Origin: Methanococcus aeolicus Nankai-3
GTDB taxonomy: Archaea; AGJL01; Methanococci; Methanococcales; Methanococcaceae
NCBI RefSeq assembly: GCF_000017185.1
Contig: NC_009635.1
Location: 374,563 to 438,562, forward strand
Direction of reading: 5' to 3'
Length of the DNA stretch: 64,000 nucleotides
Positions 2,407-44,158 of the stretch are shown here, one piece after another. The notes under the pieces were generated by a model. That model ran no database searches and had not been told where the DNA came from. It worked only from the letters and a program-made list of their open reading frames with translations. The position numbers and the translations under genes are program-made. Numbering within the stretch: position 1 is the first letter of the stretch; the number at the start of each line of letters is the position of its first letter.

Positions 2407-2690
2407 TATGGTTAATCTTAATTAAATGTCCTCATATATTTAATATTCATGGCCATTCATTGTCCACCCTAAGTTATTAAATAAAATCTCTTCGAGATTT
2501 TATACAAAATCGAAGATTTTATAAACAAAATCTTTTAGGAGTTCATACCAAAGCATAACTTTTGCAAACAAAATCCTTTTAGGATTTTGTACAAAATCGA
2601 AGATTTTGTAAATAACTTTCTTTATTTTTAGTAATATGGAGATTTTGCTTATGGTGGTATGGTAATGAAATTGTCCGAAAATTGACCATA
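2407..2690. repeat. MITE-like element, copy A
   Basis: An AT-rich block bounded by imperfect terminal inverted repeats: the left end reads TATGGTTAATCTTA and the right end, reverse-complemented, reads TATGGTCAATTTTC. Inside are several perfect hairpins: AAAATCTC/GAGATTTT with a TTC loop (2488-2506), ACAAAATC/GATTTTGT-type arms with a GAA loop, and AAAATCC/GGATTTT (about 2570-2587). The internal hairpin block is shared with copy C. It fills most of the 514-base gap between the ZPR1 gene and the regulator gene. An open frame through it on the minus strand is only the translated hairpins and is not a gene. Confidence 0.7.
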
Positions 2691-12953: not shown

Positions 12954-13060
12954 TATAGTAAGTTCAATAACTGTCCCTTATCTGGCTTATTATTGGTAAT
13001 GGGGTATAGATTAGCTTTTAATCATAGCATATTTATGAAAAAGGCCGAAGATTGACTATA
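12954..13060. repeat. MITE-like element, copy B
   Basis: A 107-base intergenic block. The left end TATAGTAAGTTCAATAACTG matches the left end of copy C with a small deletion, and the right end CCGAAGATTGACTATA matches copy D almost exactly. The terminal bases form an inverted repeat with TA at both tips. It has no coding capacity and lies between two ferredoxin genes of the Eha cluster. A GGAGCTCC palindrome follows nine bases after its right end. Confidence 0.65.
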
Positions 13061-21647: not shown

Positions 21648-21819
21648 TATAGTTAATCTTCAATAACTGTCCATATCCGTCCCAAATCATTAAATAAAAT
21701 CTCTTCGAGATTTTGTACAAAATCGAAGATTTTGTAAATAAATTTCTTCGTTTTTTAGTACTGGATAAATATTTACATATAATAGGCGATTTAGGGAAAT
21801 ATTTCGAAGATTTACTATA
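21648..21819. repeat. MITE-like element, copy C
   Basis: A 172-base element with the clearest ends of the family: left TATAGTTAATCTTCAATAAC, right CGAAGATTTACTATA, forming a 14-base terminal inverted repeat with one mismatch and TA at both tips. The interior carries the same AAAATCTC/GAGATTTT and ACAAAATC/GATTTTGT hairpins as copy A. It ends 25 bases before the rfbC start, so it replaces or forms the leader of rfbC. No open frame of its own. Confidence 0.75.
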
Positions 21820-21843
21820 AATAAAAGAAAGGTGTGTGATACT

Positions 21844-22401
21844 ATGCCATTTGAATTTATGAAAACCAAAATTTCAGAAGTGATATTAATAAAACCAAAA
21901 ATTTTTGGAGACGAAAGAGGATTTTTTTTAGAAACATATGAAAAAGAAGATTTTGAAAATGCAGGCATTAAAGGAGAATTTGTTCAGGACAATCATTCTA
22001 AATCTTGTCATGGTGTGTTAAGAGGATTACATTTTCAAAAAGAACCTTATGCACAAGCTAAAATAGTTAGGTGTATTAAAGGAGTTATTTTTGATGTTGC
22101 TGTGGATTTAAGGGGGAGCTCTCCAACATTTGGGCAGTGGGTAGGGGTTGTGCTGTCAGAGTATAATAAACATCAATTGTATATTCCAAGGGGATTTGCC
22201 CATGGTTTTTGCGTTTTAAGTGATGAGGCAGAGGTAGTATATAAGGTGGATAATAAATATGCTCCTGAATGTGAATGCGGAGTAATTTGGAATGATGAAG
22301 ATATTGGTATTGACTGGCTTATTGATGAACCAATACTGTCCGATAAGGATAAACAATGGCATACTTTAAAGGAGTTGGATGAGAAGGGTGAGCTCTTTTA
22401 A
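21844..22401 (+). CDS. rfbC: dTDP-4-dehydrorhamnose 3,5-epimerase
   Basis: Third enzyme of dTDP-L-rhamnose synthesis, a cupin-fold epimerase of about 185 residues. Motifs include [17 protein letters not shown] near residue 55, the [11 protein letters not shown] strand and [10 protein letters not shown] near residue 116 (catalytic His region). ATG 21844 follows TGTGATACT; an in-frame GTG four codons earlier lies in the ribosome-binding sequence. It is separated from rfbD by the ATPase gene and a MITE-like copy, so the rhamnose genes are no longer contiguous. Confidence 0.93.
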
Positions 22402-44098: not shown

Positions 44099-44158
44099 TA
44101 ATAGTCAATCTTCGGACTATCGGGTCTAACAAGGGACAGTTATTGAAGATTAACTATA
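44099..44158. repeat. MITE-like element, copy D (minimal)
   Basis: About 60 bases consisting almost only of the two ends: TAATAGTCAATCTTCGGAC on the left and TTGAAGATTAACTATA on the right, which are inverted repeats of each other. Read on the minus strand it begins TATAGTTAATCTTCAATAAC and continues with ACTGTCCCTT as in copies B and C. It lies in the 307-base gap downstream of the secreted-protein gene and upstream of manC. Confidence 0.65.

Follow-up and report, generated by a model that had tools for sequence, protein, structure and literature searches.

RUP of Streptococcus pneumoniae, an element of about 107 bp present in about 108 copies, inserts at TA and is sited between genes (PMC2229807), and Correia/NEMIS elements of Neisseria, with more than 100 copies, possess TA-tipped inverted ends, duplicate TA, fall into length classes and give rise to structured transcripts (PMC10969869, PMC2229807). 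In archaea, 19 orphan MITE-like structures that lack an autonomous partner have been described (PMC3852290). Here, we show that four repeats in a 64,000-nucleotide stretch of the Methanococcus aeolicus Nankai-3 genome (the window; bases 374563-438562 of a single 1,569,500-bp contig) are part of a family of about 145 gene-less mini-transposons that occupies approximately 1.5% of the genome. The family matches RUP in size, copy number, TA insertion and intergenic siting; however, RUP has a transposase-bearing relative in its genome, whereas none was found here, and an interior hairpin mosaic such as the one reported below is not described for RUP. Copy number, TA-tipped ends, TA duplication and length classes are likewise shared with Correia/NEMIS, but the sequence is unrelated and the interior unlike. 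As in the orphan archaeal elements, the copies are repeated and have inverted ends, and a transposase partner was not found, although the present family is far larger and its target rules are mapped. BIMEs, the combinations of REP sequences, are also mosaics of short palindromic units; here, in contrast, the palindromes lie inside transposon copies and almost always in one orientation, and hence, judged on their placement and orientation, they do not form the free-standing, RAYT-linked mosaics of the REP/BIME kind. Within the same order, Methanocaldococcus jannaschii reportedly carries MJRE, short palindromic high-copy repeats that are mostly extragenic; compared by description rather than by sequence, the family resembles them in these respects but differs in that its inverted ends are defined and flanked by TA, its left end comes in two types and a single copy may hold as many as eight hairpins. 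Thus, the family is ordinary in kind, a MITE, and unusual in its density, its hairpin mosaic and its one-sided target rule. In the partial literature collection available to us, we found no paper describing repeats of M. aeolicus as MITEs.

A family of mini-transposons between host genes

The genes of the window and their relatives (polyferredoxins and related genes) point to the Methanococcales. The initial annotation, a reading of the letters of the window, had placed four copies with common ends and internal hairpins there, and its coordinates hold except for the start of the last copy (44100, not 44099). Copy 3 (21648-21819, plus strand, 172 bp), located upstream of an rmlC-like gene (21832-22401), has left-end type A and both 14-bp ends exact. 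Its left terminal inverted repeat, TATAGTTAATCTTC (21648-21661, plus strand), opens with the outer TA (21648-21649) that represents the target duplication, the core beginning at TAG, and its right terminal inverted repeat, TATAGTAAATCTTC (21806-21819, minus strand), carries the second target copy as its outer TA. Between them lie two hairpins, module a1 (AAAATCTC-TTC-GAGATTTT, 21696-21714, plus strand) and module a4 (ACAAAATC-GAA-GATTTTGT, 21717-21735, plus strand). Copy 1 (2407-2690, plus strand, 284 bp) has decayed ends, which depart from the end patterns at 4 and 2 positions, and several a-type hairpins; copy 2 (12954-13060, plus strand, 107 bp) has left-end type B, TATAGTAAGTTC, and lies between two polyferredoxin-like genes; and copy 4 (44100-44158, minus strand, 59 bp) is a minimal form that consists of the left end, AATAACTGTCC, a short linker and the right end.

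With up to two mismatches allowed, the 14-mer gave 11 matches when only the window was searched, barely above chance (shuffles: mean 5.3, largest 11), whereas genome-wide the end TATAGTNAATCTTC had 172 exact matches and the reversed control pattern had none; hence, it is the genome that settles the reality of the family and of its common ends. With one mismatch allowed, the end pattern matched 257 times and the control 6 times, and a 172-base query, the length of copy 3, matched 57 times in the same genome. Counting copies as inverted, correctly spaced end pairs within 667 kb fetched around the ends (stretches making up about 42% of the chromosome, so that copies elsewhere with both ends decayed are undercounted), we obtained at least 143 paired copies with a total length of 22.8 kb, or 1.45% of the 1,569,500-bp chromosome. 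The right end GAAGATTGACTATA is present in all 143 pairs and is common to two left-end types, TATAGTYAATCTTC or a near form of it in 103 pairs and type B in 40; both ends are within one mismatch of their patterns in 82 pairs. The copies have a median length of 134 bp (range 59-340 bp), contain no ORF, and are scattered across the whole chromosome in both orientations (69 plus, 74 minus). Identity between nearest copies reaches 97%, which points to fairly recent movement.

Although ORFs of at least 90 codons make up 78% of the DNA, 142 of 143 copies lie outside them, and they favour none of the three classes of gap (convergent, divergent or tandem) between neighbouring genes. About 20 long open frames, counted as frames rather than as individually confirmed genes, run into a tip of the element and stop there, mostly at the TAG of TATAG. 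For the copy at 500865, a paralogous operon has no copy, and the paralogue of the gene whose frame enters the right tip is the longer of the two. The polyferredoxin-like genes that flank copy 2 are separated by 229 bp in this genome and by 20-24 bp in each of five relatives. Both empty-site comparisons stand at the level of genes rather than bases, and the genomes compared include no other strain of the species; thus, the empty sites that the initial annotation proposed to look for were seen in relatives at gene level and in no strain.

The window is also rich in a palindrome, GGAGCTCC, which occurs 40 times (e.g., at 1742, 2105, 13069 and 44307; shuffle mean 0.17). In 667 kb it is found 552 times, 616 times the expectation (the next 8-base palindrome reaches 25-fold), with 415 occurrences inside and 137 outside genes, and relatives have almost none of it, with 1 occurrence in about 78 kb of homologous DNA. 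It resembles HIP1, the highly iterated palindrome of cyanobacteria; a review of HIP makes no mention of archaea.

TA duplication and target choice

Two arrangements resolve the duplicated target to the base as TA. Inside the copy at 1359121-1359348, a decayed 60-bp copy is nested; its removal with one TA kept yields GTTTATTGAAAAAGACC (17 bases), which is uninterrupted in 3 other copies, whereas keeping zero or four bases does not restore an intact family sequence. In a tandem pair (1066748-1067136, resolved at 1066917), the junction at 1066905-1066930 reads CTA-TA-TAG, from which it follows that the core extends from TAG to CTA and that the neighbours have one TA in common. These two arrangements together rule out a duplication of TATA or none at all. 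Moreover, the copy at 726082 is inserted into an older copy at that same internal TA, and its removal with one TA kept gives GTTTAGTGAAATTGTCC, intact in four copies, provided that a mutation is assumed, since the right-hand TA reads CG; in a further nested case, at 157704, the length agrees with the TA model only approximately. Three head-to-tail tandems (364285-364667, 1136402-1136634 and 1214685-1214874) have instead the junction CTATC(T/A)GT, not CTATATAGT, as if one mechanism had made them.

A longer duplication of 3-10 bp outside TATA was also considered, and no register gave a consistent signal apart from an identity between positions -1 and +1, which reflects target choice. The left -1 base equals the right +1 base in 79 of 125 copies (50 expected), and the same base stands on either side of TA in 77% of copies compared with 49% of background intergenic TA sites, the preferred target being T-TA-T or, on the other strand, A-TA-A. 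In addition, the left flank has a GC-rich patch at positions -7 to -4 (1.67 versus 0.70 of 4 bases; z = 12, 18,778 background sites), with GC contents of 49, 50, 35 and 33% at -7, -6, -5 and -4 against 18% at -8; the right flank, examined in the same respect, has none. The patch accompanies both end types and short as well as long copies. It is not carried by the element, since in nested copies it is native target sequence, nor does it stem from gene ends or starts, being confined to four positions and the same across end types and length classes. From its one-sidedness it follows that the element inserts in a set orientation with respect to a target that is itself asymmetric. Tc1/mariner-type insertion does not typically show a target asymmetry linked to one end, and we have no established mechanism at hand for such an end-oriented choice.

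Hairpin modules and related elements in other genomes

The internal hairpins common to the longer copies are more varied than initially described. Among 127 well-preserved copies, 52 carry hairpin modules, with 1-8 perfect hairpins each, and 75 have no hairpin; the hairpin-bearing copies combine eleven stem types in 34 arrangements. A second, independent tally gave 1.24 hairpins per copy, compared with 0.07 in shuffled interiors, and loops of exactly three bases in 146 of its 157 hairpins. The arrangements follow a certain grammar: a1 or a2 is usually followed by a3 or a4, b5 by b6, b7 or d9, and g8 by b7 or b5. Module sequences are found nearly always inside copies and in the copy's own orientation; independent mobile repeats were considered as an explanation and ruled out, as the hairpins almost never occur outside copies. 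Recombination between copies would be the simplest source of the arrangements.

Outside M. aeolicus, the 172-base query had zero matches across eleven further genomes of the genus, and none of the other genus genomes searched contained the family. Short relatives that share the family's ends are present elsewhere in the order, in three genomes of a sister family, at about 3-12 copies per genome; they measure 100-105 bp, have the core TAGTCAATCWTC...GAWGATTGACTA and contain a single hairpin in the middle. These relatives of about 100 bp may be of the MJRE kind. When seven of their hairpins were aligned by hand (one loop base being trimmed in one of them), four pairs had changed on both sides, and none had in slid controls, which is only suggestive of compensatory change in so few sequences. 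Exact-pattern scans of GTDB and viral collections returned nothing or chance 16-mers, and plasmid and phage records gave no match to the family.

The search for a transposase and competing explanations

We found no pair of family ends that encloses a transposase gene in the M. aeolicus genome, the searched relatives, plasmids or phages, and no autonomous transposon there with these ends; the intact transposase-bearing element that the initial annotation proposed to seek did not turn up, and the family is an orphan MITE. Two facing right ends 1.1 kb apart (18304 and 19403) were rejected as an autonomous element, since both belong to truncated copies and an ordinary membrane-protein-like ORF lies between them. 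The whole-genome transposase search covered PF13358 (DDE_3) and PF01609 (DDE_Tnp_1), and control genomes confirmed that the profile search works. PF13358 is absent from M. aeolicus and from the three sister-family genomes with related elements, and the only remnants found in M. aeolicus were two broken PF01609 matches at 551-553 kb.

Given these results, we consider the repeats very probably to be a non-autonomous DNA transposon (MITE) family of high copy number that duplicates TA and whose candidate DDE-type transposase is not recognisable in the genome today. In such a model, a mobile core, TAG(T/C)AATCTTC...GAAGATTGACTA, would be mobilised in trans by a cut-and-paste transposase that recognises roughly 12-14 bp of the ends; as the copies show, insertion duplicates TA, prefers T-TA-T/A-TA-A and leaves the left end facing a GC-rich patch at a distance of 4-7 bp. 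The transposase may have been lost, may have come from a plasmid or relative, or may belong to a family outside our searches. Interiors range from almost empty (59-60 bp) through simple (110-135 bp) to those with up to eight perfect hairpins with 3-base loops, presumably shuffled between copies, and surviving copies are nearly all intergenic or at gene ends, the tip often supplying a stop codon. The inverted ends, the base-resolved TA duplication, the roughly 145 dispersed copies, the lack of coding capacity and the absence at gene-pair level in relatives all support the MITE reading; the orphan state, the target asymmetry tied to one end, the want of a strain-level empty site, the CG in place of TA at 726082 and the merely approximate length at 157704 speak against it. 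The initial annotation was to be abandoned if the genome held no further copies, or if relatives had no empty sites and TA was not duplicated; the search with the ends revealed about 145 copies, and gene-level empty sites and the duplication were both found. The family size, second left-end type, hairpin mosaic and asymmetric target were beyond what that annotation could see.

As to the mover, the proposed action in trans of an IS630/Tc1-mariner-like transposase is borne out as regards TA duplication, but no link to such an enzyme emerged from the searches. An origin from such a transposase, now lost from the genome, is plausible from TA: ISY100, itself of the IS630/Tc1-mariner group, inserts almost exclusively at TA, which it duplicates (PMC2170065), and RUP, itself a TA-inserting MITE, is attributed to IS630-Spn1 (PMC2229807). 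Moreover, another genome of the genus, G009, has about ten DDE_3 matches, several of them broken, and no further genome of the genus has any. However, the DDE_3 loci of G009 and of G023 showed no such ends in the fetched DNA, and the family shows insertion at and duplication of TA but not the ends of a DDE_3-bearing IS630 element. Other families, IS5-group elements for example, can also duplicate TA, and, with PF13358 missing from all element-bearing genomes, we regard this origin as possible rather than probable. It is unlikely that an IS5/IS4-type (DDE_Tnp_1) transposase moved the copies and left the fragments at 551-553 kb, the only remnants available for this explanation; near them, no ends resembling TATAGTNAATCTTC were found beyond chance similarity, and the ends of the original element were not recovered.

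Strong hairpins with perfect stems and loops of a uniform three bases, changes on both sides of sister-family stems and locations at gene ends would suit non-mobile, REP-like structured sequences, regulatory or 3'-end RNA/DNA, that spread by recombination and are kept for a function. Nevertheless, the discrete inverted ends with duplicated TA, the base-resolved nested insertions, the many hairpin-free copies, the indifference to gap orientation, the absence from all other genomes of the genus and the failure of an Rfam search of the window to return a match make this very improbable. More speculatively, and in our view rather doubtfully, a transposase of a family unrecognised in these archaea may read an asymmetric target (GC patch, then T-TA-T) with a fixed left-end orientation, and the hairpins may be exchanged cassettes with a role in transposition or in host RNA.

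Returning to the orphan MITE family as such, its load is among the densest that we have met for an archaeal chromosome of this size. The approximately 145 natural insertions serve as a readout of the rules of an unrecognised transposase, namely the duplicated TA, the T-TA-T preference and the one-sided GC patch, and the tips of the mini-transposons supply stop codons for about 20 open frames. The hairpin cassettes raise the question of whether they meet a structural need of mobility or are RNA processing sites, a question that is open to test in a cultivable methanogen order with genetics.
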